The notes beneath the pieces were generated by a model. The model was not told the DNA's origin and ran no database searches. It saw only the letters and a program-made list of their open reading frames with translations. A stretch of 16,915 bases of DNA from Elusimicrobiota bacterium. Its GTDB lineage: Bacteria; CG03; SLGR01; PWQF01. The stretch is taken from assembly GCA_003557485.1 (NCBI GenBank), contig PWOI01000002.1, positions 1 through 16,915 of the forward strand, written 5' to 3'. The position numbers and the translations under genes are program-made. Shown one piece after another: positions 1 to 15,950 of the stretch. Position 1 is the first letter of the stretch; every line of letters begins with the position of its first letter.

Positions 1-3000
1 AAAATCCTCTTAGAATAAATTATATGGTAGCTAAATTCAGCGGAAGCAAAGATGAAGTGGGTTTTGCAATACCTTATATTGAACAATCACTTGAAGCTAT
101 GAGGCCTACACTGGATTTGCTGGGTGATAGAGTTGAGTTGATTATAACTTTTAATTCGGGAACAGCCAAGGAAAATGTTATAGAGTATGAAGTAGAAAGA
201 GTAAAGAAGCTCGCCAGAAGATATCCAAAAAATGTTGTGTTTTTATACACGAACAAAAAAATAGCAGAATGGACGGATAATGTAAAAGGAAAAGCAGGAC
301 GCACCGGTGCTTTCGGCCAGAAAGCCGGCACAGTTGAAAATGGTGTCCAGCTGTTAGTAACCGGTGAATCCTTTCCTGTTACACATGTTGACCAGGGTCT
401 GGAGGCCTCACAGGTTCCGGATTCCCGCCTGTTCAGCGAAGTCTGGTCGTCAGACCTTTCCAGAGCCCTGGGTGTAGATGGAGATAATGAAACAATCAGA
501 GAGGACATACTTGCAGGAAGGAAAGTTGATATAACAAATGTGCCGGAGTTTATGATAGTAATGGACGACAAGAACGAGCTTCTTTTCGGGAGTGATTTGG
601 AAAATGCTCTTGCAATAATGCTGCATCCGGAAAACAGGCATATAGTGATGGCTACTCCAAATATCGCGATTACCCCTCCTTTTGAGCCTGGTAAGTATCC
701 AAAAGAGAGTGCTCTGTGGCGCATTATGCGCTCGGCAAGGGACATTCACAATGAATTTAACGCAAAAATTCTTGCGGGTATGTATAGAAACCAGATGGCG
801 TTTTTCGGTAAGGGTATGGTCCGTCTTCCGGAGTATTATGACAGGGTGTACGGCCGTGATGTGCAGCCCCATCCGCATGCTACTTCTCACGACTGGCAGG
901 AATCTGTGGCAGTCACATATGCAGACGGATTCTACGGTTCCACGGATTTCTCAATAGAAGTGCTGCAAGAGTCTGGAGACGGTTTGGAAAAAACGATTAA
1001 AGTAAGGCTTAACGAAGAAGTTTCTTTTGTCAGGATTAAAATTTGCCCCGATACTGCGGATGTAACTATAAGTCACATTACCCCTGAAACAGGTGCTTTT
1101 GAAGAGTACAGGGAATTTAAAGGTGTTTTTAATCTGCCCTCTACTAAAGAAAAGTGGGAGAATACCTTGCATACAACTTCAGAGCAGGCAGAAAAAATTG
1201 TAACCCTGCAGGAAGAGCTTGAAAAACGGGGAGAAAAACTTACTGCATATAATTTTGAGGAAAAAATAAGAGAAAACAAACCGGATTTGGCCAATGAGAT
1301 TAATATCAAAAAAGCTGGCAACTGGCTGCGCAGTGAAGGGAGGAAATACCTTTTGGAATATATTACCAGTTTTTACAGCAATACAGTCAATTATGGAGAG
1401 AGAGATATGATGAATTTCGTATCTTACCTTATCAGGGATTCCAGGTGGCTTAAAGGAGATTTTCAGATGTACAGGACGTTGGGGCCCTACTCTGATCTTC
1501 TTCCCCCCTATCATAGCTGGCACCTTAGCGGTATTGGAAGAAGATTTTTCGGGGATCCTTCCTTTGCAACATTACTTCTGCTGCTGAACTCCCTGTGGCT
1601 TGTTCCTACCCTGGTGTCAATTCCTTATTTTCCGGTTATTGCCGGAATTACTTTTGGGGTGACCATGTTTGGAATAATATTTATTGACCGCGTTATAGAT
1701 CCCATAAGGTACGAAAGGGTAAAAGCAGAGAAACAGGGTGTGCGTTTCAATCTTTTTGAAAGCGTTGCAAGAGGAGCGTTTCAGCTTTTAAAGGGCGTTT
1801 TGGATACTGTCAGGACAACAGTCATATCACTCCCCCTTGTTTTAGTAAGGCCGTTCATGGTTTATATACAATATATGCTTGAATCTGGAAAAAAAGATAA
1901 AGAACCCGATTGGCCTTCGGCAACATTTCTTGTTACAAAGGAGTTTGCAGAAAGTATAGGTTTTGGGGACGAGTTTGATATGTATATATATGATGCTGTA
2001 TTTGTAGCGTTTCTTTTTTCCGCAGGTGTAGGCGCTCTATTTATGCTTGGGTGGGTTCCATTTACCATGTTCGGTGTTTTTGGGCTTATGCCGGTGCTGG
2101 GTGCATTTACAACAGGTTGGATCGGTATAAAACTTACCGGGAAATCACGGGATCTTTCTGAACCGGGGGATTCTCTGTGGCGGAAGGGGGCAGTAGCGGG
2201 TTTGTTTGTGCTGGGCGTGGGCGGGTACGCTGCGTTATACTTTGCGGCAGGCATAACGGTTCCGTTTATGCTGGCCGGCCCCGCGCTGGTTCTTTTCTCG
2301 TTTCTTGGGGTGCGCTGGGCCGAGCAGCCGGTAACTTTTGAAAGGGCACCTCCCGGAGGCAAAATTTTCGGATGGTTAGGCAGCAGGATAGCAAGGGCAT
2401 CCGTATCGCTTCTCCTTATTGTCAGTTCTATTGCAGTTCCGTTAGCTGGGGAGTTATTTAAAAATATGCCGGCAAATGTTCCGGATGCTATATTACAAGT
2501 AACAAATGTTCTTTTCCCGGATGAAGAAAGTAGATATGCATTCGGTGACCAACACAGATATCTTTTCCGGGGAATAGACGAAGAATACAAGAGTATGGAC
2601 TTTTACCTGCCCGAAGATCCGGTCTCCGGTCTTCCTTCCACCCTCAAACCCCGTGAAGATGCGGTCGTTCTTGATGAGACACAAGCGCGTCCCGCAACTC
2701 TTGGTCGGGCTATTCCTCCTCTTATAGGAGACCCAAGCGTTTTTGAGGAAGTAAAAGGGGATCCGCGTTCTGTGCTCAGAGAGGTTCCTGTCCGGCAAGA
2801 TCTTGCCGTAGTGCCCCAGGCACGGCCCTTTAGGGAAATGCCTTTAAGGCAGCCCCGTTTACGGGATACTCGACAATTGAGAGAATTCTTTGAGGCTGCC
2901 GAGGCCCTGGGAACGCCGAGAACTTTAGGTTCTACTATTGTAGGGGCAGTAAAAACAGGTGTCGGGATTGTTTTTCCGCCGGCCGGGATAGTTCTTGGAG

Positions 3001-6000
3001 TTGTTGACAGGGCAACTGCAGTTAATGAAATAAGAAAATACGGCGACAGGTGGCCCTGGTTTACTTTGGCTGATCCTGTTGTTGCCCAGTTCTGGTTTGA
3101 GGCAAACTTGCTCACAAAGGAAAAGGATATGGAAGAGATAGCAGAGATATTCAGATGGGATGATATTGCAAAATTCTGGAGAACAGGTATCAGTGAGCAG
3201 AGGCGGAACTGGAAACACTACGAGGAACTTCAGGCAGCAGTTCTTTCACTCTATTATTCCGGGCAGGAAGTAAACGAAACTAATGTCAGGGCTTTTCTTG
3301 ATGAATACAGGAAAGTAGAAAGCCTGGCTGAAAAATATCCGAGAATATCTCTTACTCCTTTCAGACTGGTGCCTGACGGAGGCAGAACGCTTCTTAAGGC
3401 TTTTGGTAATATAAGTTTCTATATACCTGTTCTTCCGGGTATTCCCGGAACCCAGGGTGTGGTTCTGGCTGATGCTTTTTTCTCGGGGGATTCAGGAACT
3501 TTTGAATCTCTGACCGCTTTAGCGGTTGCAAACGGCATTTCTGTTGAAGAAATTATGGAAATTCTCGGGTTTGATTATGTAAACGAAAGATGGGCTGAAT
3601 TAGACTTTAATAATATTGACCCGATAATAAGAAGGGCCTACTACAACCAGCTCCGCAGGGAATATGACCGCAACGGAATGGAAAATGTGGAAATTACAGA
3701 TGATGACGTAAAACTTCAAATACTTCAGGCAGAGTATTCAATGGCGCTTGATGCCTGGGAATCCACCGGAGGAGAGGGTTATCCTGCACACGAAGATATA
3801 AGAAAGATATCTTCAGAGCTACAGAGAATCATGGCTGCCGTTGGCCCTCAAACTTTGTTCCCGTTCAGGGATATACACGGCAACATAACAGACCTGGGTA
3901 TATCCGGAATTATTGCAGTGGAAGCCTATGCTGCGCGGGAGATTAAAGGATGGACGCTTGATCAATATATGGACTCCTTAATTCCGCGGCTCGAACTTAT
4001 ACAGGAATATAAACGATCAGATGTGAAAATCCCGGAAGATGTTTCTGACGAACTGCTGTTTCAGAACGAGATGCGCCGCCGCGGCCTTGAAACCGACCCC
4101 AGGATTGATGACCCGGCAGTGGCCGATGCAATTGACGAGTCAATTCGTAATATGTCTTCCGAGGCCAGGGAGTTTACTTCTTATATGTGGCTGGCATTGC
4201 TGGGTATGGAAGCCCCGGAAGGTGTAGAGTCCGAAGTTATAATAAAGACATTTAAAGATATCCTTGAATCCGCCCGTAACATCGGTTTTGATTCTGTTTA
4301 CGCGTGGGCGGCTGCAAGTTATCTTACAGTACCGTCTCTTTATAACCCTGATATGGATTTAACCGCATATATGAAGGGAGAACTTGAACAGGTCCGGGAA
4401 TGGGTGTCGGAAGAAGCTGACCGCGAAGACCGCGAAATTGACAATTTCAGAAAGTTCTCCGATACGATTCTCAGAATCAATTGCCGCAAACAGGGTTACA
4501 CGGAAAGTCAGATTGATCTTCTGCTGGAGCAGTCCGCGGACTCGGAAAGAAAGTATACCGCATTTATGTTCCTGGCTGATTTGAAAGGAGTTGCTGAAAA
4601 AAACAACCTTGACCCGGCGCCGTCGGAGCTTGCAGGCAGGTGGCTGGAAATTTACAGCCACGGACTGGGACAATACGAATCCATACCCTGGGAGGAAGTA
4701 GCAGGGTACTGGACAATTAAATCTTTTGTTACAGGAATGGATGCAGGGCAGATACTTGCTGAGTTTGAAGGTGATTTAAGAAAGGCGGATGAGTGGCTGC
4801 GTGTGGGAATAGATTTGGATGAAAAATTTATAGAGATAACATTACGGAACAACTATAGAGAGCAGGGGTTCAGCGAATCCGATATTGAACGTTTGCTTGA
4901 ACAGACCGGGGAAGAAGAGAAGAAATATACAGCATTTATGGCGCTTGCCGGAATGGCCAGGCTTGCCGAAGAAAACAACCTGGAACTGGCCCCCTCGGAG
5001 CTTGCAGGCAGGTGGCTGGAAATTTACAGCCACGGACTGGAACGATATGAATCCATACCCTGGGCGGATGTGTCGGGGTACTGGACGGTGCTCTCCTACA
5101 GAGCGGAATTTACTTCTGTTGACAGTATGTTTGCCCGTTTTTCGGAAGAGTTTGAAATTGTCAGCGGATGGCTCAGTGACAGAAAATTCTCTCCGGGAGA
5201 GAGATTTGTTGAGACAGTCAACAGAAACTTATTCTCGGAGCAGGGGTTTAGCCCTGAAAATATAGATATGCTGATGGAGCAGACTCCTTCAGATGTCCTT
5301 CTTTTTAACTCATATATGTTTCTGGCGGGGCTGCACCTGGATGCCGTCCATAACCAGGTTAGTATATCCCCCGGTGTGCTTTCCCGAACCTGGCTGGGTA
5401 TGTACAGTGCCGGAATAAACGGGGAGCATAGAAGTATTCCCTGGATGGATGCCGCCGGCGCGTTTATGATGGAATACCTCATAAACAGGGAAACTCAGGA
5501 ATGGGAAAGTGTTGAAGACTACCTGGGTTTTATTGACGGGAAACTTTCGTGGGTTAATTCAATGATATCCGGAGGGAGAGCGCTGCCCTGGGAAGAGTTC
5601 GCAAGAGAGAACGCATTCAGGGGACAGATAATTATGCGCGGCCTTGATTACGATCCAAGGAAAAGGGATTCCGGGATGGAAACACTTATAAATAATTTTA
5701 TTGACAGTGAAAAACCGGGTGTCCTGAATTTTAACGCCTGGATGACTCTTGCAAGTATAAGGCAGGAGTTTAAGGAAAGGTTTGGAGATGAACTGAGTGA
5801 TGAGCAGGTAAGCGAAGCTGCCTCAATTCTTTTGGGATTCTGGAGCCAGCTTCCTGAAATATATCCTAAACTTCCTCTTTTTAAGCCGGGTGTTGTTGAA
5901 AATATGGTTGTTGAAGCTCTTACAATGGAGAACCCCGGTCAGGTTGTGAATATGCAGAACCTTGAAGTTGTAAATGATTTATGGGAAACGGAAATTGATG

Positions 6001-9000
6001 AAGATATCAAAGACGCCCTAAGCGACGAAATATATGAAAGGACCGGAATACGAATTACTGACGGGGATATACTTCATCTTAACGCACTGCAGGCCGGCAT
6101 AGGGTTTCTGAAACAGAGTGGTCTTGAACTTGAAATAAACGGTGAAAATATACAGCGGTCCCTTCGTTTGATAACCCGGATACGCTCTATGGCCGGTGAT
6201 TACCGGGAGCTTAATTTAAAGAAACAGGGGAACTCTGAGATATGGGCCGCTTTTGCAATCAATACCGGTATAGATGCGGACAAGTTAGAAACAGACTATT
6301 TTCAAAAGATTAAAGATCTTTTTGATCCTGTAAAATCGTCATTGTCTGATGGGGAAATACGGATAATGCTTGAACATCAGGAAAAAATAAGCGCGACCGA
6401 AAGAGATACCGCCGCCGGAATGTATGGAGTGGACGCTTCTCGTCTGGCTGAGCCCGATATAGAAAAAAACGACTTTGTCACAGAAATTGCAAGGTTTCAC
6501 CTGCGGCGCGCCTATGAACTGGGGCTTGGGACAGAAGGAGTGGACAGTTTTTTCTCTGTTTTAAAGGGAGTAAAGGATGCTCACGGCGGATTCCGTCAAG
6601 ATATGGAGTACAGCGAGCTTCGTGAATGGCAGAGCCGGATGGAGTCCTACGCTTTTGGCCTGCATCAAATCAACCTCCTGGTTTTCGGGGAGGCCGCGGA
6701 TGAGAGCTTAAGGGAAGCGGTCGGTGATTTCAGCAATTTTGAAGTTTTAAAGGAAGCGTTTCTGGAAAACCTGTCGGCGGTCCGGGGCAGCGATGAGGTG
6801 TTAGGACAGCTTAAAAGTATCGAAAGAGATAGGGATGCAGATCTGGCTTCGGCGTTTGAATTTAACTGGACATTATGGATGACGCTGCGGGAAGTAGATA
6901 TTGAGGAAATGGAGAGCATAGTCTCTAATCTTGATTTTGTAAGAGAAGCCCGCGCAGGTTTGATCGGGCTTGAACTTCCGGAAGAAACAGGTGTAGCCTT
7001 TGACGATGCCCTGCATATTCACCGTAGAGGGGACAGCTGGCTGAGCAGGATGCTTTTTGAACTCGAAACCAAGGTGCAGAGGACTGAAGAGAGACTCTGG
7101 GCCAACCGCGTTGTCAAGCATGCCTATTCGGAGTTTTTTGATATAAACCTTGATGAAGATATTCCGGAGCATAAGAGGCTTCTTGAGAGCATATATCACT
7201 GGTATCTTAGACTGGAATCCCGGAATCCCGGCGGGAACAACTTTGAATATATTGTTGAGACACTTGCCGGGGTCGGGGAAATTGAAGAATTTGAACCTCT
7301 AATTACTGCTCTCGGCCGGCTCTCGCCCAGATCCCATACTCCTTCCTTTACAGAAGAAAACGCATATATGGAGAATTTGATATCGGAGATAAATTATGTT
7401 GAAAGGCTGAGGGAAAATCTTCTCCGTCTGCAGAGGGAAAGCAAAGATACTGCAGATCTGGAAAGAGATTTACAGCAGGCCGAAGAACGTCTTGAGCGGC
7501 TTAAAAATCAGGCGGGGGCGGAGAATACGGTTAATATGGTCAGGGACTATCTAAATGAAATGGATAGTTTTGACGATAATGTCAGGCGCAGGGTGCAGGA
7601 AAGGCTTGACAGTATTGATCCGGCGGAAAGGTTGCCTCATAGGGAATCTGTAATAAGTCAGGCCAGGCTTGCAGATCGGCATCTTAATGAACTAAGAGCA
7701 GATAAGCGTAGAAATGAAATGGATGTTTTGCTGGGATCAATTGGAGTTTTTCTCTCTTATTTTTTTATTAGTAAAAAGAGTCATGAATCGCGAGAAAAAA
7801 GAAAGGCGGCAGCCGAGGCAGCGAAAAAAGCGGCTGCGGCAAAGAAAAAGACCTCACCTCCTATGGACCACACGGCAGCCCTTAATCAGATAAACACAGA
7901 CTATACTGAAAAAGAAATAAAAATGAGCAGAACATTGGAAAGAATGAAGCCCGAAACGCTTGTGGAACACGCTAAATCACTTAATTCAGCAAGTCTTCCG
8001 GTGACTCATACTACCCTCAGGTATAATCCTGAAACGCTGATAGAAAGAGCCCGTATTTTAAGGGAAAGAGGAATTGAAGTAACAGCGGCATCTCTTACAA
8101 GAAATTATAATCGCATTACTTCTATTGCTCCTGCATTAGGAGAAAACATTCCGCGGCTCATAGGAGATGCCGCATCCTATTATTTCCGCCTTGAAAACCA
8201 TCTGCGATTTGCCATGGATCTTCATGAAGCGCTAAATAAAGGGACAGCAAACGCTCTGGCAATGCTGCTTAAGGGCGAGAAAGATGAAGCAGTTTTTGTT
8301 GATACTGACGGTTATAGTGATGAATTAAATATTCTTAAAGGAGTTGAAGGTATAGATGAAGTAAGGGTGAGCAATCAGGATCCTGAACTGGTGTTTCAAA
8401 ACGAGGGTGTTTACGGGCTTGCCACAGTTGAAATTGTTGAAGGGAAAAAAGCCCTGATAGTTCACAGGCTTGTCTTAGACGCGCTTAGAGATCGGGGACC
8501 GCCTGCTGTATACGAGTCTGCAAGGCAATACCTGGAAGAACTTGCAAGACATGAACTTGATGAATTTAATTTCCTTCAATCCAACCCCGGAAAAACTTCC
8601 GAAGATTTTCATGAAAAATTAAAAGCTGAAAACTCCCGCCAACTGAATCTTTTTGAATTTAAAAGACATATAAAAGAGCAAATAGTATTTCAGGAATACA
8701 ATCTGGCCCTTGAAGATATAAATAGACATATAGAAGACAAATCTAAGTTTGTGAGTTTAAATGATGCATTAAAACAGCTTGCGCCAGCGGAACTTACACA
8801 GAGGGCCCAAATGCTCCGTTATTTGAATGTTGAAGTAAACTGGCAGACACTTACGGATACGGAATTCTTTAACGATCATTTTTCAGTGACGGAACACCCG
8901 TTTTATCCCGAAGGCGCTGAAATTGAGTATCTGCATATGGATGGGTATTATCTTACTGATCCTGTAAAAAGATATCCAAATAATTCATTTTTTATGGAGC

Positions 9001-12000
9001 GGGAAAATGGGTATATATTTGTAAAGTCTCCGGCCAGCATATTTGCCCGTGATGTTAACGCAGAAGAAGCTATCATTATGAGCCTGCAAGGCAATATTTG
9101 GGTATCAGGAGAGCCGGAACCTGCAGTGGCATTAGTAAGAGTATACCCTGAATACAGAAGGGATACAGCAACCGCTAAAGATACACTTGAGAGAGTATTG
9201 AATACATTGTTTGAGGAGATGGAAAAACAGGGCTTTCATATCATTAATGTTTCACATAACGCTCCAGGCGGTGTTCCTGTCATAAATGTAAACGGGCTTA
9301 ACTACGATCAGATAAGAGATATTATAAGAAACGAGGTGAATCCCATCAGAGGGCCCGGGTGCGCAGTTGATCAATGGGACTTATCTCTTACTTCTGAACG
9401 CGGTCTTCAGAGATGCAACCTGCTGTCTATTGAAACATCTCCTAAAGATACAGAAGGCGAAACCTGGCAGGCTTCCAAAAAGGAATGGTTTGCTCCTAAA
9501 GATTTGATTTTGTCTTCTTTTTACGAAAGCCGTTACTCGTATTACGGGAATAATGTCCCGGTTCTTATTTCAAATGCCATAAAATATCTCAGTCGTATTG
9601 ACCCTAATTCGCGGCTTGTTTCCGAACTTATCAATGCAGCAGGGAATGCCCTTGCGGTTCTCCTTAAGGGAACCGTTGACGAAAACATCCTGACAGAAAG
9701 TCAGCTTTCAGAGAAGGGGTTTACGACTATGAGAGACACCTTGAGAGTTGAAAGCAAAATGAATGTTCAAGTAAGCAACCAGGATATTAACCTGATATTT
9801 CAGGGCGACGATATTTACGGCCTTGCTACAATAGAGGTTGACGAAAGAAGCGGAGAGAAGACATTGATAGTTCACGAATCAGTCCTGAATGCGCTTCAAA
9901 AACGCGGTCCGCCTGCAGGATTTACGGTTGAATCTTTCCTTCAGATGCTTGCCCGCCACGAGATAAATGAGTATGCCTACCTAGAAAATAATAGAGGAAC
10001 AAGTTCCGAAGATTATCATAAATCTTTAGATAAAGACCACGAAGAACAAGCCCTTTTTGAGTTTAAAAATACAATAAAAGATTCTTTTTTTATTGCCTCC
10101 CCTACAGACAGGGAAAAACAGCGAGCCGATCAGGTTCTCATAAAAGTTAGAGACATGGTCAGCCCGATCAGCCGGGATGACAAGAGTGTAAGCAAAGCCG
10201 TAGGAGGCCTGCTTGAATCGCTGGAATCTACTATAGAGGGTTTAAAGAATCATGATCCGTATGATCCGGAGTCGTACCTGGCAACAGCCCAGAGGGCTCA
10301 CTCAAATGCCTCGCCGGGTGACGAAGAAAAATTTCCCGGGTACAATGCTGTTCTGAATGAACTTGAGAAGTTATACAGCCTTTCAATAAAGGAGTGGAAT
10401 AACGTAGCGGAATTAATTAACTCGGGAGAAATAAACCCCGGCGGTACAAGTTATAAAGTCTCCATTGAAGGTGAAGAAGCCGTTGTTCCGGATGATTTAC
10501 AGAGGCCTTCAAGAGCAATCTTTTATGCTACAAAGTTTGAGCCGGCGCAGCTTGCCCATCTTCTGGTTATTCCAAAACTTCTGGCTGAAAAGAAAGCCGA
10601 TAAGGTGGTGTTAATGAATGATAACAGCGATCCGGAGCGCAAACCCGGTCTTATCAGTCTGGCCATACGCGACCCCATAGCCCGGAAAGCTTTAGAGTCT
10701 TTCGGTGATTTCATACAGTTCACAACTTTTCAAAAAGAAGAACTGGATTTATTCCGCGCGGACGGAGAAACGGTATTCGGGGAATTTCTGAAGCAGAATG
10801 CCTCAGTGCCGCTGACTGCGTTTTATGTGGCAGGTTATGACCATCTCCGGTTGAGATACACTGACAGGAAAACCGGTGGTCTCCGCAACGATACTCCGCT
10901 TAAGATTGCAGAACTTAAAACTGAACTTCAAGGGCAAATACATTCAGAAACAGATATAAACCTTATCTTTTTAAAGCGTCCCGGAATTGAATTGCCGGAT
11001 CCTCCTGAAAAAGTTCAGCAAGAATCCAAAGTTCCGCTGTATGTAGTGGACCTCGGGCTTGATGTAAATGTTTCGGCGACAATGGTTCGCGAATTTGGCC
11101 GCTACTGGTTGACATTGTATCAGAACTATCAGTCGGCCGGCGCATTGGGAATCTGGGGGTTTGATAATGATCCTCTCTATCGCATCCGCCAGGATGAAAT
11201 TGCTCAGGGACTGATAGGATCGCTGGGGCTGAGAAAAGATAAAGAAGGTAATTTTTATGATTACAGCGGTTTTGATGAGGGAAAATTTAAAAATCATCTT
11301 CAGGAAGCCGCCGGCAGGGCAATAGAGCAGACAGACAGAGCTCTGATAAAAGTATTTCTTGATGATCAGACAACTGATGAGCGTCGCAGTGAGTTGATGA
11401 GAGTACGCCAGCTTCTTTTTGAGAGGGTTAGGGAAAGTCTTTCACCTTCTTTTAAAAATGAGATAGAAAGTTTTCAAGAGTTTCTCAAAGAAAACCCGAT
11501 AGTGGACGGAAGAATGCTTACCGAAAATGACAGGTTGAAAGCTGTCCCGGGACATAGGCACGGTCTTTTGAACGAGGCCAGAAGCATACTCGAGTCCGAA
11601 ACCAGTTCCAGGGATGAAAAGATACAGGCGGTGCGTTCTCTGTGGAGATGGACAGATTCAGGGGCATTAAAAGTTCTTTCGGATTCTCTTATAAAGTACA
11701 GGCATGATCCTCTTATAACAAGGGAGGTTTTGAAGGCGCTCCATGCGAATAAGCAGGATGGGGTTTTGAGAGGCAGGGAAATAGAGCACTATAGCATTAC
11801 CGGAACAATATGGAGACTGGTTGATGATTATGGATTATCCAGGGATAAATTTACGCTTATTCAAACGGAACCTATGCAGGAGTTTTTGCTAAGGTTCGAT
11901 TTTTCCGGAAAAGGATTTTACGATTTAGAAAATTTTATAGAGCAGTTGAAAAATTACTATGTTAAAAAAGACCCCTCTGTTAATGTCCAAGTGAAACACC

Positions 12001-15000
12001 GCAATGTGGACAGGAATAAAACGTCCGGGGATATTGTTATAAGTTTTGACATTAATACGGCTAATCTTACTGATTTCTGGAGGGCTTTGGGAACGCACGA
12101 TTTCCGTATTTATGAAGACGGGTTCTACCGCTCTTTTACTTACAGGGAACTTGTGCAGAAACTGGAAGAAAAAGCAAAAAGCGTTTTACAGGGGATAACT
12201 GAAGAAGAAGGTTTAAGTCCGGAAGAGATGCGTTCTCTGGCGGAATACATTTATGGGGACGGTACCGTATATAATCCGGGTATAATAGGTATATTGAAAA
12301 ATCCGTCACAGTATAAAGACCTGCAGCATATAATGGTAGAATCTCACAAGGATATCGACCCCGCAACGGGAAAGGCAAGAAAAGATAACAGGGCTTCACT
12401 TGCGGAGTTGGAAAAACTTGCCAGGTACAATCCTTATTTTGCCCATTTTATACCTGAAAGTGAGACTCAAAGATGGATATACCTTGCCCGCGCTGCAGGG
12501 AATATTTTTTCCACTGCATATATGAAGAGCTTGATGAGAGGTTATCCCGAACTTCGTGATTTTATGTTTTTTGTTTCAAAAGACACTATGGGGACTCCAC
12601 TTGCGCAGGCTCTGAATACGGAGATATCAAAACTGACCGGGCTCATTGAAACAAAACGTGACGGTGAAGATGTTTTTGACAGGGTGAAAAATTTCACAGC
12701 GGTTAAATTGTCAATGATGAGATGGCTGAGAAACAAGTTCTATGCATCGGAAAAGGTCCGGATTGCCGGAAAAGAGGGTTATATACTTTATCGGGAAACA
12801 GAAGTTTACCGCGATGAAAGCGGAAGCCGGATAGAATTGTTTAAAGTGCGCGAATTACCCCGTACAGATGCACGTATCATAGGTGAGGTGATGAGAATAA
12901 AACCAGCAGGTAAGCGTACAACTGTTCTTGAAAGTGCCAGAGTGCTTGAAACTGGTACATCTAAGTTAAGGGAATTGTCTGCAGATGAAATAGGTGAGAT
13001 AGTCACTGTGAAGGCTCAAATGGAGTATAAAGGAATAGGTTCTCAGTACGATATGCCGGAACAATATCCTTACACTATAGCATCCTTATATAAACAGTTG
13101 CTTGCTTCCGGTGTTTTAAGAGGTCTTGTGCGTAGGGATGCCGAAGGGAATGTTATTGTCCCTGAAATATGCCTGGTTGACGAAGTAGCAGACGGTTCCT
13201 GGGATTTTCTTGCAATTTTTGCCATAGAGGAGCTTTCGCGTCAGGATATGAGCGAGATAAATGAATCGTCTTTGCGCGAAAAGCTTAAAGAAAGATTTGG
13301 GGAAGACCGCTGGTGGCTTCGTGATGCGGATGTCTATTCTTTAACTGCAGAACAGATAGAAAAATGGGAAGAATTGGAAGAAGCAATAAAAGAAGAAAGA
13401 AATATTGCCGAATCGGTGGATGTTAATGTTTTCATAGGGCAACCCCGCAGTTCCGGTGCTCTGCAAACGCCGGGCTACCCGAGCCTGCAAGTTGAAGAAT
13501 ATATGAGGAGGTACGGGATGACAGAATCCGAAGCCAAGATGGCTATAGAAGCGTCCACTCATGGAGCTGACTTTAATCCTCATCCTTTTATGGTTGACAG
13601 GGAGCATCCTGATGCAAGAGTTCTTCCTATTTACGGAGACAATATCCCGATAAAACTTGAGAATTGGCAGGTTTTCATCGGATTTTATTTAACTCAACTT
13701 CTTATCTATAACGGAGTTGTAAGATATTATAAAGAGGAATATAAGCGTCAGGCTGTAGAACAGATAGGAAAACTTTTAAATGATCCGGAAGTTTCTGTTA
13801 TATCCAAAATCCAGGCGCTGGAAGTGCTTAAGGCTTTTCCTTTTGAGCGGACACTTAATTTAATTTTGGAAAATTATGATGTTTTTAAGGATAATCCTGA
13901 GTTGCTCAGTAAAGCGGAAGATACCAGTCTGGAGATATTTCGCCGCATAATGGATGAAGCGGTTTCTTTTGATAGTCAGGGCCGGATAACTGAAGTCAAT
14001 AATGTGGAAAATTTGTTGCACAGGGCCCCTATAGTTAAAAAGCAACGGGCCAGCAGGTTTAGCAGGCTCAGTCAAGAGGCTAAAAACGTTCAGGGTTACA
14101 TTGAAGAGGAACGTAATCGAATGGTTTTAGTAGGTTTACCTTTTGAAGTTTACAATAGAATCAGCGTAAATGAATTGAATAAACTTCAGTTTCAAAGAGG
14201 TGGAAATTACACTTTTTATGCGGTTCCCGTTATGTCAGAAAAAGAAAGTGATATTAAAGCCGAGCTTGACAGAAGCCGAAGAGCGCTGGGTATAGAAGAT
14301 TTTATGTTTCTCAGTAAGGATATGTTTTCTGCGGATAATCCGGCAGGCGAGGCAAATATTATATCGGCCGTTAATAAGCAGTATCCGGATACGGGTTTGA
14401 AGGAAGAATATACAACCCTTCCGTTTTCATTTTTTCACAACCTGGTCGCTTTCGGGGTAGGTTTAGCATCAGTAGGGACGTTGATAGCGGTTTCTTCTAC
14501 ATTACTTCCGTTTGAGGCGCTTTTGTTTTCTTTCGGTGCAACTCTCGCCGCCGGCTGGATGACAGCCAGGTATACGACGCATTTTCTTATGTCATCATTG
14601 GCGCTGTTATATATGAGCGTACTGAACAGCTTCTCACCCGGAACTGTTAACTTGGGGCAGGTGGACATTGATGTTTATAACTATGCGATTGATGAACTGC
14701 GCGGGTATGGCGCTTATACGGTAGTGAATGATGGTATGGAAGGAGAGTCCCGCCTTCCGCGGCACAGGTTTGCTGAGACAGAAGCTGATACAGGAAAGGT
14801 AAAAATAGCTTCCTGGCTTGTTTCCGATTCAGAATCCCGTGTATTTAACTTTCTCAGAGGGCTTATCCTTCCTGTTGTACTTGAACATGAGGGTCACCGG
14901 CTTATGGGCCGCGGAACTTTAGAAACCTATATTGCCAAACCCTTTACAAGGCCTGTGGCAGAGGAAAGGATTTATGAAGAGGCTGAGGATGAAGATATAG

Positions 15001-15950
15001 CTAAAGCCGATGTGAGGTCAGAGGCCTACCGCTTGGCTGAAGGGTATGGGTTGACGAGAAGAGAAATAGATTATTTAACAGTACTTTTACCAGGTCTTCC
15101 CGAAGACCTCAAAAAATCTTTTATTGTTGCAGAGGACGGGCTTGGTTCTAATCTGTTAGGAGATATTAATAAACTAAGGGACGAAGGCCATCTGCCGGAT
15201 GTTGAAGCCGGGGATGTTCTTGCCCTGGAAAAAAGAGTAGTAGGCCGCCTTGCTCTGCTGGGCCTGAGTTTAGAGGATAAGAGTCTTCTGGGAGATATCG
15301 TCAGGTACGTTGCGGCATATGAGAAGAGCCGCGCAGACTCCACCGACAGGTTTGAGCTCGCTGAATTCTATATGGAAAATCTTGGCATAGACAGCAGCGA
15401 CAGGGAAGCCGTTATAGAGGCTACAGCGGCTCTTGTTTTCTTCAGTCATATACTTTTTACCGGTGATACGGGAGTTCTGGGAAGGCACAGCAGTATAGAG
15501 GAGAAGCTTGAAGTTATACTAAGCGGTCCCGGGTACAGAAATATGTCGCAGTCGGATCTTTCTGATGTTAAGGCAAGGGTTCTGGATTTTGAGAGGGAGT
15601 TTCGCGGCAGCGCGCTGGATATAGCGCCTGTATCGCATCCCGGAGCCATAGGGGTTGAAGAGAGTTCTTTTATGGAGAGAAGAAGCGGAATAGACCATCT
15701 TACCGATGCCGTCAGGCGCCTGGGGTCTGCGATAATTGAGTTGCCGTTTACATTTGTAAGCCTGCCGGGAAGTATTGCTGACAGGCAGTGGGACGGGTTA
15801 ATGGCAACGGACGCTCTCTTTCTGCGTACAGGGTACAGGTCAAGGATAGAAATTCTTATTGAGAGAATGCGGGCTGCGTTCGGGTTTGGCGCTGGCAGTG
15901 GCATACTGCCCGACCTGAACGAAGTTGCGCCGGTGCTTTATGCAAGTTAA
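1..15950 (+). CDS. Giant multidomain membrane protein with GT84-like (NdvB-type) glycosyltransferase head, 5' partial
   Basis: One frame stays open from the first complete codon (3-5) to TAA at 15948-15950, over 5,300 codons. The ATG at 24 is probably not the start. No Shine-Dalgarno precedes it, the frame is open to the window edge, and initiation there would cut the first beta strand of the glycosyltransferase fold. NdvB relatives also carry N-terminal membrane helices before this domain. Order (residue 1 = ATG at 24): GT84-like catalytic domain 1-485, seven or eight membrane helices 514-814, Pro/Arg linker, helical repeats 1000-2450, coiled coil, single membrane helix 2566-2583, duplicated HExxE domains, NadD-like domain 3485-3700, HEAT-like parts, second membrane cluster 4806-4875, helical C-terminus. 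Family knowledge suggests polymerisation of a glucan from a nucleotide sugar at the inner membrane. The product, and the role of the 4,500-residue tail, are unknown. Classical NdvB is roughly 2,800-2,900 residues and ends in a GH94 module, absent here. Confidence 0.93.
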   Translation, partial: NPLRINYMVAKFSGSKDEVGFAIPYIEQSLEAMRPTLDLLGDRVELIITFNSGTAKENVIEYEVERVKKLARRYPKNVVFLYTNKKIAEWTDNVKGKAGRTGAFGQKAGTVENGVQLLVTGESFPVTHVDQGLEASQVPDSRLFSEVWSSDLSRALGVDGDNETIREDILAGRKVDITNVPEFMIVMDDKNELLFGSDLENALAIMLHPENRHIVMATPNIAITPPFEPGKYPKESALWRIMRSARDIHNEFNAKILAGMYRNQMAFFGKGMVRLPEYYDRVYGRDVQPHPHATSHDWQESVAVTYADGFYGSTDFSIEVLQESGDGLEKTIKVRLNEEVSFVRIKICPDTADVTISHITPETGAFEEYREFKGVFNLPSTKEKWENTLHTTSEQAEKIVTLQEELEKRGEKLTAYNFEEKIRENKPDLANEINIKKAGNWLRSEGRKYLLEYITSFYSNTVNYGERDMMNFVSYLIRDSRWLKGDFQMYRTLGPYSDLLPPYHSWHLSGIGRRFFGDPSFATLLLLLNSLWLVPTLVSIPYFPVIAGITFGVTMFGIIFIDRVIDPIRYERVKAEKQGVRFNLFESVARGAFQLLKGVLDTVRTTVISLPLVLVRPFMVYIQYMLESGKKDKEPDWPSATFLVTKEFAESIGFGDEFDMYIYDAVFVAFLFSAGVGALFMLGWVPFTMFGVFGLMPVLGAFTTGWIGIKLTGKSRDLSEPGDSLWRKGAVAGLFVLGVGGYAALYFAAGITVPFMLAGPALVLFSFLGVRWAEQPVTFERAPPGGKIFGWLGSRIARASVSLLLIVSSIAVPLAGELFKNMPANVPDAILQVTNVLFPDEESRYAFGDQHRYLFRGIDEEYKSMDFYLPEDPVSGLPSTLKPREDAVVLDETQARPATLGRAIPPLIGDPSVFEEVKGDPRSVLREVPVRQDLAVVPQARPFREMPLRQPRLRDTRQLREFFEAAEALGTPRTLGSTIVGAVKTGVGIVFPPAGIVLGVVDRATAVNEIRKYGDRWPWFTLADPVVAQFWFEANLLTKEKDMEEIAEIFRWDDIAKFWRTGISEQRRNWKHYEELQAAVLSLYYSGQEVNETNVRAFLDEYRKVESLAEKYPRISLTPFRLVPDGGRTLLKAFGNISFYIPVLPGIPGTQGVVLADAFFSGDSGTFESLTALAVANGISVEEIMEILGFDYVNERWAELDFNNIDPIIRRAYYNQLRREYDRNGMENVEITDDDVKLQILQAEYSMALDAWESTGGEGYPAHEDIRKISSELQRIMAAVGPQTLFPFRDIHGNITDLGISGIIAVEAYAAREIKGWTLDQYMDSLIPRLELIQEYKRSDVKIPEDVSDELLFQNEMRRRGLETDPRIDDPAVADAIDESIRNMSSEAREFTSYMWLALLGMEAPEGVESEVIIKTFKDILESARNIGFDSVYAWAAASYLTVPSLYNPDMDLTAYMKGELEQVREWVSEEADREDREIDNFRKFSDTILRINCRKQGYTESQIDLLLEQSADSERKYTAFMFLADLKGVAEKNNLDPAPSELAGRWLEIYSHGLGQYESIPWEEVAGYWTIKSFVTGMDAGQILAEFEGDLRKADEWLRVGIDLDEKFIEITLRNNYREQGFSESDIERLLEQTGEEEKKYTAFMALAGMARLAEENNLELAPSELAGRWLEIYSHGLERYESIPWADVSGYWTVLSYRAEFTSVDSMFARFSEEFEIVSGWLSDRKFSPGERFVETVNRNLFSEQGFSPENIDMLMEQTPSDVLLFNSYMFLAGLHLDAVHNQVSISPGVLSRTWLGMYSAGINGEHRSIPWMDAAGAFMMEYLINRETQEWESVEDYLGFIDGKLSWVNSMISGGRALPWEEFARENAFRGQIIMRGLDYDPRKRDSGMETLINNFIDSEKPGVLNFNAWMTLASIRQEFKERFGDELSDEQVSEAASILLGFWSQLPEIYPKLPLFKPGVVENMVVEALTMENPGQVVNMQNLEVVNDLWETEIDEDIKDALSDEIYERTGIRITDGDILHLNALQAGIGFLKQSGLELEINGENIQRSLRLITRIRSMAGDYRELNLKKQGNSEIWAAFAINTGIDADKLETDYFQKIKDLFDPVKSSLSDGEIRIMLEHQEKISATERDTAAGMYGVDASRLAEPDIEKNDFVTEIARFHLRRAYELGLGTEGVDSFFSVLKGVKDAHGGFRQDMEYSELREWQSRMESYAFGLHQINLLVFGEAADESLREAVGDFSNFEVLKEAFLENLSAVRGSDEVLGQLKSIERDRDADLASAFEFNWTLWMTLREVDIEEMESIVSNLDFVREARAGLIGLELPEETGVAFDDALHIHRRGDSWLSRMLFELETKVQRTEERLWANRVVKHAYSEFFDINLDEDIPEHKRLLESIYHWYLRLESRNPGGNNFEYIVETLAGVGEIEEFEPLITALGRLSPRSHTPSFTEENAYMENLISEINYVERLRENLLRLQRESKDTADLERDLQQAEERLERLKNQAGAENTVNMVRDYLNEMDSFDDNVRRRVQERLDSIDPAERLPHRESVISQARLADRHLNELRADKRRNEMDVLLGSIGVFLSYFFISKKSHESREKRKAAAEAAKKAAAAKKKTSPPMDHTAALNQINTDYTEKEIKMSRTLERMKPETLVEHAKSLNSASLPVTHTTLRYNPETLIERARILRERGIEVTAASLTRNYNRITSIAPALGENIPRLIGDAASYYFRLENHLRFAMDLHEALNKGTANALAMLLKGEKDEAVFVDTDGYSDELNILKGVEGIDEVRVSNQDPELVFQNEGVYGLATVEIVEGKKALIVHRLVLDALRDRGPPAVYESARQYLEELARHELDEFNFLQSNPGKTSEDFHEKLKAENSRQLNLFEFKRHIKEQIVFQEYNLALEDINRHIEDKSKFVSLNDALKQLAPAELTQRAQMLRYLNVEVNWQTLTDTEFFNDHFSVTEHPFYPEGAEIEYLHMDGYYLTDPVKRYPNNSFFMERENGYIFVKSPASIFARDVNAEEAIIMSLQGNIWVSGEPEPAVALVRVYPEYRRDTATAKDTLERVLNTLFEEMEKQGFHIINVSHNAPGGVPVINVNGLNYDQIRDIIRNEVNPIRGPGCAVDQWDLSLTSERGLQRCNLLSIETSPKDTEGETWQASKKEWFAPKDLILSSFYESRYSYYGNNVPVLISNAIKYLSRIDPNSRLVSELINAAGNALAVLLKGTVDENILTESQLSEKGFTTMRDTLRVESKMNVQVSNQDINLIFQGDDIYGLATIEVDERSGEKTLIVHESVLNALQKRGPPAGFTVESFLQMLARHEINEYAYLENNRGTSSEDYHKSLDKDHEEQALFEFKNTIKDSFFIASPTDREKQRADQVLIKVRDMVSPISRDDKSVSKAVGGLLESLESTIEGLKNHDPYDPESYLATAQRAHSNASPGDEEKFPGYNAVLNELEKLYSLSIKEWNNVAELINSGEINPGGTSYKVSIEGEEAVVPDDLQRPSRAIFYATKFEPAQLAHLLVIPKLLAEKKADKVVLMNDNSDPERKPGLISLAIRDPIARKALESFGDFIQFTTFQKEELDLFRADGETVFGEFLKQNASVPLTAFYVAGYDHLRLRYTDRKTGGLRNDTPLKIAELKTELQGQIHSETDINLIFLKRPGIELPDPPEKVQQESKVPLYVVDLGLDVNVSATMVREFGRYWLTLYQNYQSAGALGIWGFDNDPLYRIRQDEIAQGLIGSLGLRKDKEGNFYDYSGFDEGKFKNHLQEAAGRAIEQTDRALIKVFLDDQTTDERRSELMRVRQLLFERVRESLSPSFKNEIESFQEFLKENPIVDGRMLTENDRLKAVPGHRHGLLNEARSILESETSSRDEKIQAVRSLWRWTDSGALKVLSDSLIKYRHDPLITREVLKALHANKQDGVLRGREIEHYSITGTIWRLVDDYGLSRDKFTLIQTEPMQEFLLRFDFSGKGFYDLENFIEQLKNYYVKKDPSVNVQVKHRNVDRNKTSGDIVISFDINTANLTDFWRALGTHDFRIYEDGFYRSFTYRELVQKLEEKAKSVLQGITEEEGLSPEEMRSLAEYIYGDGTVYNPGIIGILKNPSQYKDLQHIMVESHKDIDPATGKARKDNRASLAELEKLARYNPYFAHFIPESETQRWIYLARAAGNIFSTAYMKSLMRGYPELRDFMFFVSKDTMGTPLAQALNTEISKLTGLIETKRDGEDVFDRVKNFTAVKLSMMRWLRNKFYASEKVRIAGKEGYILYRETEVYRDESGSRIELFKVRELPRTDARIIGEVMRIKPAGKRTTVLESARVLETGTSKLRELSADEIGEIVTVKAQMEYKGIGSQYDMPEQYPYTIASLYKQLLASGVLRGLVRRDAEGNVIVPEICLVDEVADGSWDFLAIFAIEELSRQDMSEINESSLREKLKERFGEDRWWLRDADVYSLTAEQIEKWEELEEAIKEERNIAESVDVNVFIGQPRSSGALQTPGYPSLQVEEYMRRYGMTESEAKMAIEASTHGADFNPHPFMVDREHPDARVLPIYGDNIPIKLENWQVFIGFYLTQLLIYNGVVRYYKEEYKRQAVEQIGKLLNDPEVSVISKIQALEVLKAFPFERTLNLILENYDVFKDNPELLSKAEDTSLEIFRRIMDEAVSFDSQGRITEVNNVENLLHRAPIVKKQRASRFSRLSQEAKNVQGYIEEERNRMVLVGLPFEVYNRISVNELNKLQFQRGGNYTFYAVPVMSEKESDIKAELDRSRRALGIEDFMFLSKDMFSADNPAGEANIISAVNKQYPDTGLKEEYTTLPFSFFHNLVAFGVGLASVGTLIAVSSTLLPFEALLFSFGATLAAGWMTARYTTHFLMSSLALLYMSVLNSFSPGTVNLGQVDIDVYNYAIDELRGYGAYTVVNDGMEGESRLPRHRFAETEADTGKVKIASWLVSDSESRVFNFLRGLILPVVLEHEGHRLMGRGTLETYIAKPFTRPVAEERIYEEAEDEDIAKADVRSEAYRLAEGYGLTRREIDYLTVLLPGLPEDLKKSFIVAEDGLGSNLLGDINKLRDEGHLPDVEAGDVLALEKRVVGRLALLGLSLEDKSLLGDIVRYVAAYEKSRADSTDRFELAEFYMENLGIDSSDREAVIEATAALVFFSHILFTGDTGVLGRHSSIEEKLEVILSGPGYRNMSQSDLSDVKARVLDFEREFRGSALDIAPVSHPGAIGVEESSFMERRSGIDHLTDAVRRLGSAIIELPFTFVSLPGSIADRQWDGLMATDALFLRTGYRSRIEILIERMRAAFGFGAGSGILPDLNEVAPVLYAS
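3..1480 (+). other. GT84-like glycosyltransferase catalytic domain
   Basis: Motifs align in order with the GT84 domain of cyclic beta-1,2-glucan synthases (recalled, not searched). A gKxG segment is at residues 98-106 (GQKAGTVEN). The strand-plus-acid motif MDDKNE at 180-185 stands where NdvB has LDADT. HPENR at 201-205 matches the family's HPLNRP. FFGKG at 260-264 matches FTGKG. SHDWQE at 288-293 matches the SHDLLEG catalytic-base motif. RWLKGDFQ at 474-481 matches RWVRGDWQ, the counterpart of QxxRW in processive GT2 synthases. The nucleotide-sugar site and base therefore look intact, so the domain is probably active in the cytoplasm. An extra stretch of about 140 residues sits between SHDWQE and RWLKGDFQ. 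The donor is probably UDP-glucose by family analogy; linkage cannot be read from sequence. Confidence 0.82.
1563..2465 (+). other. Membrane domain of the glucan synthase head (about 7 TM helices)
   Basis: Hydrophobic segments lie at about residues 514-536, 537-557, 658-678, 681-706, 723-744, 745-766 and 793-814. A further hydrophobic helix at 593-617 is followed by a basic stretch (SGKKDKE) and D-W630-PSAT. This resembles the NdvB pattern of an interfacial helix, then SRR, then LLEW and TAA, so I read it as amphipathic rather than spanning. Seven spanning helices would leave the following tail on the periplasmic side. The topology is inferred by eye with the positive-inside rule. Confidence 0.7.
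2466..3020 (+). other. Pro/Arg-rich linker after the membrane domain
   Basis: Residues about 815-960 are low in long hydrophobic runs and rich in Pro, Arg and acidic residues (for example PQARPFREMPLRQPRLR), suggesting an extended or disordered linker. A short Gly/Val/Ile-rich, possibly membrane-associated segment follows at about 967-992 (VGIVFPPAGIVLGVV). No domain is recognised. This is the point where NdvB would lead to its carbohydrate-binding and GH94 modules. Confidence 0.5.
4623..4668 (+). repeat. 46-bp perfect direct DNA repeat, copy 1
   Basis: This stretch (starts TCGGAGCTTGCAGGC, ends CACGGACTGG) is identical base for base to 4995-5040, 372 bases (124 codons) downstream. It encodes the SELAGRWLEIYSHGL core of repeat unit 2. 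The flanks continue with only scattered differences as far as ATCCATACCCTGGG. Confidence 0.95.
4995..5040 (+). repeat. 46-bp perfect direct DNA repeat, copy 2
   Basis: Second copy of the 46-bp identity described at 4623-4668, in repeat unit 3. Third positions are identical as well, which protein-level constraint alone does not explain; it points to recent duplication or gene conversion between adjacent units. Confidence 0.95.
7360..7718 (+). other. Coiled-coil segment
   Basis: Residues about 2447-2565 are rich in Glu, Arg, Leu and Gln with heptad-like Leu/Ile spacing (for example RLRENLLRLQRES and LERDLQQAEERLERLK) and almost no Pro or Gly. A long coiled coil or helical stalk ending at the following membrane helix is likely. 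It may mediate oligomerisation or act as a spacer. Confidence 0.65.
7719..7865 (+). other. Single membrane helix followed by Lys/Ala-rich tether
   Basis: Residues 2566-2583 (MDVLLGSIGVFLSYFFIS) form a short hydrophobic segment. It is followed at once by KK and a run of Lys, Arg, Ala and Glu with AAAEAAKKAAAAKKK. By the positive-inside rule the part after the helix faces the cytoplasm. That fits a periplasmic location for residues 1000-2565 if the head has an odd number of spanning helices. Topology is inferred. Confidence 0.6.
7950..8111 (+). repeat. Two adjacent PETL helical motifs of 26-28 residues
   Basis: PETLVEHAKSL at residue 2643 and PETLIERARIL at residue 2669 each open a short unit. 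Each runs on through a V/I-T-x-x-[ST]-L pattern and closes with a Tyr-Asn. A third diverged copy (PAELTQRAQMLR) starts at residue 2921 (nt 8784). The pattern is P-x-x-L, then an amphipathic helix, then a hydrophobic-V-x-x-x-[ST]-L turn, loosely like short helical repeats such as mTERF or PPR. No family is assigned. Confidence 0.6.
8181..8695 (+). repeat. HExxE domain, copy A
   Basis: Residues about 2720-2890. Landmarks shared with copy B are NALAMLLKG (2743-2751), VSNQDPELVFQ, YGLATVEI, LIVHRLVLDAL, RGPPA, and then LARHELDEF with H2843, E2844 and E2847. Next comes TSEDFH with H2863, and finally LFEFKRHIK. The HExxE-x15-H arrangement is conserved exactly in copy B, so it may be a metal site like that of zincins, though the usual HExxH is absent. 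Function is unknown; a metallopeptidase-like or binding domain is only a guess. Confidence 0.7.
8784..8870 (+). repeat. Third, diverged PETL-type motif
   Basis: Residues 2921-2949 start PAELTQRAQMLR and continue through a V-x-V-N-x-x-T-L turn to FFN, matching the length and hydrophobic pattern of the two PETL motifs near residue 2643. It lies after HExxE domain A, so the two repeat types alternate along the chain. Confidence 0.5.
9570..10091 (+). repeat. HExxE domain, copy B
   Basis: Residues about 3183-3356, a diverged duplicate of copy A. It has GNALAVLLKG at 3207-3216, VSNQDINLIFQ, YGLATIEV, LIVHESVLNAL and RGPPA. Then comes LARHEINEY with H3312, E3313 and E3316, SSEDYH with H3332, and LFEFKNTIK. 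The active-site-like residues are offset from copy A by exactly 469 positions, and the spacing from the first His to the second is 20 in both. The region between the copies (about 2950-3180) is not recognised. Confidence 0.7.
10476..11123 (+). other. Degenerate NadD/cytidylyltransferase-like nucleotidyltransferase domain
   Basis: Residues about 3485-3700. KFEPAQLAHL (3504-3513) lines up with the FDPxHxGHL nucleotide-binding motif of nicotinate-mononucleotide adenylyltransferases. KADKVVLMN and RKPG follow where the family has a D-x-V-x-x-x-P strand and a PHK-type loop. A helix with IRDPIARKAL comes next, and near the end VSATMVRE (3683-3690) matches the ISxTxIR motif. The first motif His is Gln (Q3509) and the Gly is Ala (A3511), while H3512, S3684, T3686 and R3689 remain. 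The fold is plausible; catalytic activity is doubtful. Recognised by motif order, not by search. Confidence 0.5.
11590..11755 (+). other. HEAT-like helical segment
   Basis: Residues about 3856-3910 show paired amphipathic helices of HEAT type (DEKIQAVRSLWRW, then ALKVLSDSLIKY, then ITREVLKALHAN). A similar short stretch recurs at nt 13735-13960 (KLLNDPEVSVISKIQALEV, then NLILENYDVF). Such helices usually form protein-binding solenoids. The assignment is by pattern only. Confidence 0.45.
14439..14646 (+). other. C-terminal membrane cluster
   Basis: Residues about 4806-4875 contain three hydrophobic runs: LVAFGVGLASVGTLIAVSS, LPFEALLFSFGATLAAGW and FLMSSLALLYMSVLNSF. They are interrupted by Pro and by TARYTTH. 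They may be two or three membrane helices, so the protein touches the membrane at its start, middle and end. Confidence 0.65.
14862..15947 (+). other. C-terminal helical domain with HEGH motif
   Basis: Right after the membrane cluster, residues 4947-4961 read LILPVVLEHEGHRLM, giving H4955, E4956 and H4958. The placement resembles membrane-linked metallopeptidases, but the fifth position is Arg, so a canonical HExxH is not present. The rest (to residue 5308) is mainly helical, with acidic and Leu-rich stretches. It ends with a hydrophobic ELPFTFVSLPGS segment and the terminal APVLYAS. No family is recognised. Confidence 0.45.

Follow-up and report, generated by a model that had tools for sequence, protein, structure and literature searches.

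The locus examined here raises the question of what kind of protein is encoded by a reading frame that takes up nearly all of a contig. The window, which is the entire contig G000:C169 (16,915 bases), contains an ORF at bases 3-15950 of the plus strand that runs for 5,315 codons without a stop. This ORF enters from the contig edge and has no start codon inside the contig, which starts within the gene, so that the 5′ part of the gene is missing. From its sequence, we read the window as carrying the C-terminal part, and most, of one giant membrane protein rather than the whole protein. A previous sequence-only reading had placed a GT84-like glucan synthase at the head of this protein, in front of a long uncharacterized tail. 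Using alignments of relatives, profile searches, and hydropathy, we resolved the window into the following features.

3..1502, +, GT84-like glycosyltransferase module (aa 1-500), from relatives' alignments and hhalign to Cgs GT84; its first strand lies at the contig edge
564..575, +, DDKN (aa 188-191), aligned to Cgs D624-A-D626, with D188 at D624 and K190 replacing D626
885..905, +, SHDWQES (aa 295-301), aligned to the Cgs SHD motif with D739; invariant in six sequences
1434..1469, +, RDSRWLKGDFQM (aa 478-489), aligned to the Cgs RW..GDWQ motif (R773)
1560..2462, +, transmembrane bundle (aa ~520-820) of about 6-8 helices, from hydropathy
2820..4142, +, helical region conserved in GT84-type giants, with a hydrophobic stretch at aa 979-1001, from HMM matches in three relatives
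4443..5519, +, ~3 helical repeats (aa 1481-1839) of ~110-125 aa each, from HMM and shifted self-overlap with the G014 relative
6609..6617, +, insertion point of ~440 extra residues of the G014 relative (alignment break, aa 2203-2205 against G014 4364-4806)
7341..7787, +, coiled coil (aa ~2447-2570), one membrane helix, and a Lys/Arg-rich stretch, from sequence and hydropathy
8118..8684, +, recurrent "HExxE" module, copy 1 (aa 2706-2894), from HMM; motif not conserved in homologues
9525..10088, +, recurrent "HExxE" module, copy 2 (aa 3175-3362), from HMM
10323..11216, +, degenerate HIGH-type nucleotidyltransferase-like domain (aa 3441-3738), with EPAQLAH for NPxxWGH and SATMVRE for SSTxIRN
11523..14402, +, unassigned tail without homologue among the collected ORFs
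14430..14642, +, hydrophobic hairpin preceding the C-terminal domain, from hydropathy
14991..15947, +, C-terminal domain (CTD, aa 4997-5315), from alignment of relatives, with a PxLN....LYA-type end beside the stop codon
16044..16915, +, downstream gene with a signal sequence and weak HEAT-type matches, running off the contig end

A search for the GT84-like part in 16 genomes of the window's phylum found it in two further genomes, each time within a giant frame. The G014 relative (record PWEK01000140.1, labeled Elusimicrobia) is an ORF that includes its N-terminus and spans at least 5,628 aa, and the G015 relative (SLGR01000058.1, labeled Sumerlaeota) has at least 6,000 aa and terminates in a stop. 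A scan of the genome-contig collection returned three loci only and added a complete ORF of 8,798 aa on MGVE01000017.1 (Elusimicrobia RIFOXYA2_FULL_47_53); a profile search of 294 genomes of the RIFOXYA2_FULL_47_53 phylum yielded two more complete GT84-like giants of 3,856 and 5,799 aa. Residues 1-2503 of the window protein align with the G014 relative at 33-44% identity, with one large break. Where the start is visible (four relatives), GT84 lies at aa 1896, 2341, 1289, and 1826. The ~1,300-2,300 extra N-terminal residues of the full-length relatives comprise a signal peptide and an N-terminal domain (Ndom); two relatives also have LysM between Ndom and GT84, scoring slightly below cut-off in G014 and above it in the 8,798-aa protein. 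As the contig begins inside the gene and relatives place GT84 at aa 1289-2341, the GT84-like module is not the head of the protein. The earlier estimate that this module and its helices make up less than a sixth of the visible protein held (aa 1-820, 15%).

The frame itself proved as uninterrupted as had been described. A stop-free run of 5,315 codons would arise by chance with a probability of ~10^-147 at the window's base composition, and codon-position GC bias is uniform across every 500-codon block of the ORF. GT84-like giants from five other assemblies likewise have no internal stop, which makes misassembly of the window's frame very unlikely. A misassembled or chimeric frame fusing unrelated genes might be suspected from the contig starting within the gene and from the source genome, a 2.07-Mb MAG in 212 contigs that is 86.6% complete. 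However, the G014 relative, from another MAG, has the same order of GT84, helical repeats, coiled coil, membrane helix, and HExxE module, and the CTD terminates giants in four genomes. We therefore consider such an artifact highly improbable and largely refuted; the stretch of the window without a homologue is the tail at aa 3,840-4,990.

We compared the GT84-like module with a profile of eight Cgs GT84 domains taken from plasmid records. In hhalign, the full alignment scored 30.7, compared to a maximum of 24.4 among 80 column shuffles. After excision of a lineage-specific insert of ~140 residues that separates the base motif from the RW motif, the score was 47.8 (E 5.7e-5; maximum 27.1 among 60 shuffles). 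We note that the insert was chosen after viewing the first alignment and that, the excision being post hoc, the full-alignment score is the stricter result. The two halves of the module scored 32.1 and 27.1 separately, and seven other alignments from the giant family scored 13-18. Five pairs of motifs fall in register (DDKN/LDADT, HPENR/HPLNR, GKG/GKG, SHDWQES/SHDLFEG, and RW..GDFQ/RW..GDWQ), and K.G, DDKN, HN, GK, SHDWQES, ERD, and RxxRWxxGDxQM are common to six GT84-like giants from six assemblies. The profile comparison, which lies above all shuffles, upholds the predicted match of residues 1-485 to GT84 and supports, at the level of sequence, a relationship of the module to GT84 within the GT2 superfamily.

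This relationship emerged from profile-profile comparison. Pfam and NCBIfam returned nothing above cut-off for any slice of the window, and sequence and profile searches of Pfam, NCBIfam, and PDB found no relative of the GT84-like module. The AlphaFold model of the module (pLDDT 48, from too few relatives) has no fold match and is too poor to use.

The structure of the Agrobacterium tumefaciens Cgs enzyme assigns D624 as the UDP aspartate, D739 as the catalytic base, R773 as the RW arginine, and D527 and D626 as donor/metal-site aspartates (PMC10901819). D624, D739, and R773 are retained in the window as D188, D297, and R481 and are invariant in the six sequences. The position of D626 is occupied by Lys in all six, and that of D527 is variable among them in a region where the alignment is uncertain. 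As D527 and D626 are not conserved, we name the module GT84-like only, assign it neither donor nor product, and note that its activity may be altered or lost. Of the earlier reading, the GT84 relationship is supported and "glucan synthase" is not.

Downstream of the module, the elements that had been read from the sequence are all present: helical repeats at aa 1481-1839, a coiled coil at ~2447-2570, and membrane segments at ~979-1001, ~2577-2595, and ~4810-4865. Charge bias at the helix following the coiled coil is clear in two of five proteins, those of the window and G015, and hints weakly at a cytoplasmic tail in these two; it gives no such hint in the other three. The G015 protein has, past the helical region, a domain matching PF10091 (E 2.4e-5; 24.4 bits, below the cut-off of 27), and the match rises to 31 bits with neighboring pieces. 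The ~440-residue insert of the G014 relative resembles this domain (joint profile comparison, E 7e-7), and one other giant has a weak PF10091 match. NCBI names Cgs proteins "glucoamylase family protein" after the PF10091 glucoamylase-type domain, and we equate PF10091 with the CY domain of Cgs, which its authors relate to GH144 (PMC10901819). By Pfam, the PF10091/CY-type domain is absent from the window protein and GH94 from every GT84-like giant.

The tail was partly resolved into recurrent modules common to many giants, with aa ~3841-4990 left without a match among the collected ORFs. The ~180-aa "HExxE" module, present in the window in two copies as had been noticed, recurs in G014, G015, and four other giants of these genomes. 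The motif is replaced in most of 10 module copies and kept in few; it is not a conserved site, and we reject a zinc metallopeptidase reading. The HIGH-type nucleotidyltransferase-like domain of the window has a weak TIGR00482 match and is homologous to intact domains in sister giants, one of which matches PF01467. Sister copies, including one directly after GT84 in the 3,856-aa protein, keep WGH in 5/5 cases and SST..R in 4/5. With both catalytic motifs lost in the window copy (EPAQLAH and SATMVRE), this domain is probably inactive, and we reject an active nucleotidyltransferase here. The degenerate nucleotidyltransferase and the module lacking a zinc site are more likely to have structural or binding roles than catalytic ones.

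What the giants share is found at their ends. The CTD, the last ~320 residues, has 11 matches in G014, 11 in G015, five in the window's genome (in four ORFs), and two in G009, and it closes at least 20 ORFs in these four genomes of the window's phylum. Where a stop is visible, almost every match extends to within a few residues of that codon. The window protein, the G015 relative, and about 20 further proteins have the domain at their extreme C-terminus. The profile match to the window (E 1e-98) includes the window sequence in its alignment, and independent pairwise matches were also found. AlphaFold predicts an all-helical CTD, its first ~200 residues fairly confident and the remainder not, and there is no PDB match by sequence, profile, or fold. 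We also observed a 4,035-aa frame on another contig of the window's genome (G000:C20, 1-12109) with tandem repeats at its start (RASADPRMPSSSSAPEATESAPGRD) and a divergent CTD at its end.

At the other end, each of the four GT84-like giants whose start is visible opens with a hydrophobic leader and the ~600-aa Ndom; Ndom also opens other giants in G014, G015, and G009. In the related RIFOXYA2_FULL_47_53 phylum, Ndom is present in 55 of 198 sampled genomes. At least 149 Ndom frames occur among the matches listed, with a median of 2,719 aa and 27 exceeding 5,000 aa, and a hydrophobic leader precedes Ndom in most of twenty sampled cases. Residues invariant in 21 sequences include D71-L72-H73, Q79, E101-G102, R427, and G451-G452-F453-H454. 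No relative of Ndom was found in Pfam, NCBIfam, or PDB. Its two G..H-like motifs and EG recall the TraB/TIKI/ChaN type; Pfam and NCBIfam searches with the 21 members give no support for that identity, and we do not claim it. A 1,098-aa ORF in G014 consists of Ndom and CTD with little else.

Six intact junctions in G014 and G015 read, on one strand, CTD stop, a gene for a membrane protein of ~180-200 aa, and Ndom start, indicating that giants are arranged in tandem arrays. One CTD-Ndom junction (L112) has no small gene. The small gene also precedes the G014 GT84-like giant, a giant in G009, and an Ndom start on contig C144 of the window's genome. On the minus strand of a G009 contig (C25, L108-L110), a frame of more than 13,400 aa is followed by the small membrane-protein gene and then by an Ndom giant. 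C144 may carry the 5′ end of the window gene. This genome, however, has a single Ndom start against four or more CTD ends, and we dropped C144 as a certain 5′ end since Ndom identity does not discriminate paralogues and the small gene precedes other giants too.

Between Ndom and CTD, the giants carry GT84, PF10091, SecA, GH130, adenylate kinase, PPDK, MraZ, and peptidases, and further Pfam payloads are methyltransferase, epimerase, HD, M28, M23, Rce1, CTP-transferase, and a gyrase-type C-terminal domain. The adenylate kinase and the gyrase-type domain come from an Ndom ORF whose end is unseen. A near-complete SecA, spanning the DEAD, cross-linking, P-loop, and wing/scaffold domains, is fused into the GT84-like giant of G015 (C226, L008, about 12796-15100), and a normal secA lies on another contig. 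As judged from these shared ends and the varying middle, the window protein is a member of a modular giant family. Relatives in this family bear out the earlier idea of a chain that carries its own processing or attachment machinery, with LysM, PF10091/CY-type, SecA, GH130, and GT5 domains in the same chain. The window's own tail does not: no intact enzyme was identified there, HExxE is no metalloprotease motif, and the PF10091-type domain is absent.

Three further giant frames were noticed. One Ndom giant (L042:4147-15042, +) has GH130, adenylate kinase, a gyrase A C-terminal-type propeller, and ASCH behind a signal sequence; another (L052:2-8572, +) has the end of an Ndom, MraZ domains, a CTD, and the HExxE module in two copies. 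In the window's genome, a 3,736-aa giant frame that is open at both ends (L011, G000:C53, 1-11210) starts with tandem repeats and contains a divergent SecA-like motor in which the Walker A HELRTGAGKT is kept. It has no similarity to the window protein.

We somewhat favor the hypothesis that the window encodes the C-terminal portion of an inner-membrane giant belonging to this modular family, with the GT84-like module acting as a sugar polymerase. The module would work at the inner membrane, building a sugar polymer from a donor in the cytoplasm on the underside of its membrane helices, much as Cgs and BcsA-type synthases do. Cgs leaves export to a separate ABC transporter, so passage of the chain through the module's own helices is a guess. 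The helical scaffold, together with the CY-type domain and LysM in relatives, would serve to retain, trim, or tether the glycan within the envelope. The common ends, Ndom and CTD, would form a chassis by which the giants are positioned in the envelope; docking to the product of the small membrane-protein gene directly upstream may be how this is achieved. More broadly, it is conceivable, if somewhat doubtful, that the giants of these lineages form one modular system: a two-gene cassette of small membrane protein and giant, with a fixed Ndom/CTD chassis for export and assembly into which enzymes, among them cytosolic housekeeping enzymes and a GT84-type polymerase, have been inserted repeatedly and with tandem cassettes yielding an envelope-bound assembly of fused enzymes.

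The loss of two Cgs donor/metal-site aspartates could instead mean that the GT84-like module is a degenerate, scaffold-like relic without polymerase activity, part of a giant structural or surface protein for attachment or predation, a role that has been suggested for giants of Omnitrophota. The degenerate nucleotidyltransferase and the non-conserved HExxE in the same chain point in this direction, and giants in these lineages have been read as adhesins, coats, or weapons (PMC10066038, PMC12057145). We consider a relic unlikely: six divergent proteins, drawn from two phyla, keep the remaining catalytic motifs invariant, an observation consistent with selection for a functional site, and Pfam and NCBIfam find no adhesin, lectin, or lyase domain in the window protein. 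The payloads of sister giants allow another interpretation, in which the giants are polyproteins, translated as one chain and then cleaved into individually working enzymes. SecA, adenylate kinase, PPDK, methyltransferase, epimerase, and MraZ are normally free-standing and cytosolic, and some giants contain the peptidase domains M28, M23, or Rce1. Yet a signal peptide precedes these payloads, as do membrane helices in giants of the GT84 type, and the window protein has no recognizable peptidase; we regard cleavage of this kind as distinctly improbable. A GT84-like polymerase held in a giant inner-membrane protein remains the reading that we prefer.

Cgs combines GT84, CY, and GH94 in one chain (PMC10901819). 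The giants resemble it in their GT84-type motifs in register (LDAD as MDDK, HPLNR as HPENR, GKG, SHD, and RW..GDWQ as RW..GDFQ), in the membrane helices adjoining the module, and, in the G014 and G015 relatives, in a PF10091/CY-type domain in the same chain. Unlike Cgs, they have no GH94, do not conserve D527 and D626, and carry the ~140-residue insert between the base and RW motifs; they also have more membrane helices, a signal peptide, Ndom, a long helical scaffold, and a mosaic tail, and the window member has no CY-type domain. Compared to HIGH-type nucleotidyltransferases (PF01467, NadD-like), the window domain is homologous to intact sister copies, but its GH and SST motifs are missing.

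Giant ORFs are known from Omnitrophota, Elusimicrobiota, and other PVC-related lineages, where they have been described as poorly conserved and as having few domains (PMC10066038, PMC11573180, PMC12057145). The proteins described here are similar in their thousands of residues, membrane helices, few annotated domains, and lineages, but differ in the common Ndom, the common CTD, and the recurrent upstream gene. Within the literature covered, to which bioRxiv 10.1101/2023.11.21.568195 and the Velamenicoccus paper did not belong, we found no report of common N- or C-terminal domains, two-gene arrays, or a GT84-like module in giants. In line with the sequence-only reading, no described protein with this domain order was found there, the most relevant giant-gene preprint lying outside that coverage.

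PVC-related giants have been called poorly conserved, with an obscure role (PMC10066038). A family of giants with common ends and a differing middle gives a first handle on their composition. Ndom, found in more than a quarter of the genomes sampled from the related phylum, CTD, and the upstream gene provide profiles with which giants can be recognized, counted, classified by payload, and tested. If the proposed function is true, the placing of a GT84-type polymerase in a chain of this kind would set it far apart from the architecture of Cgs.
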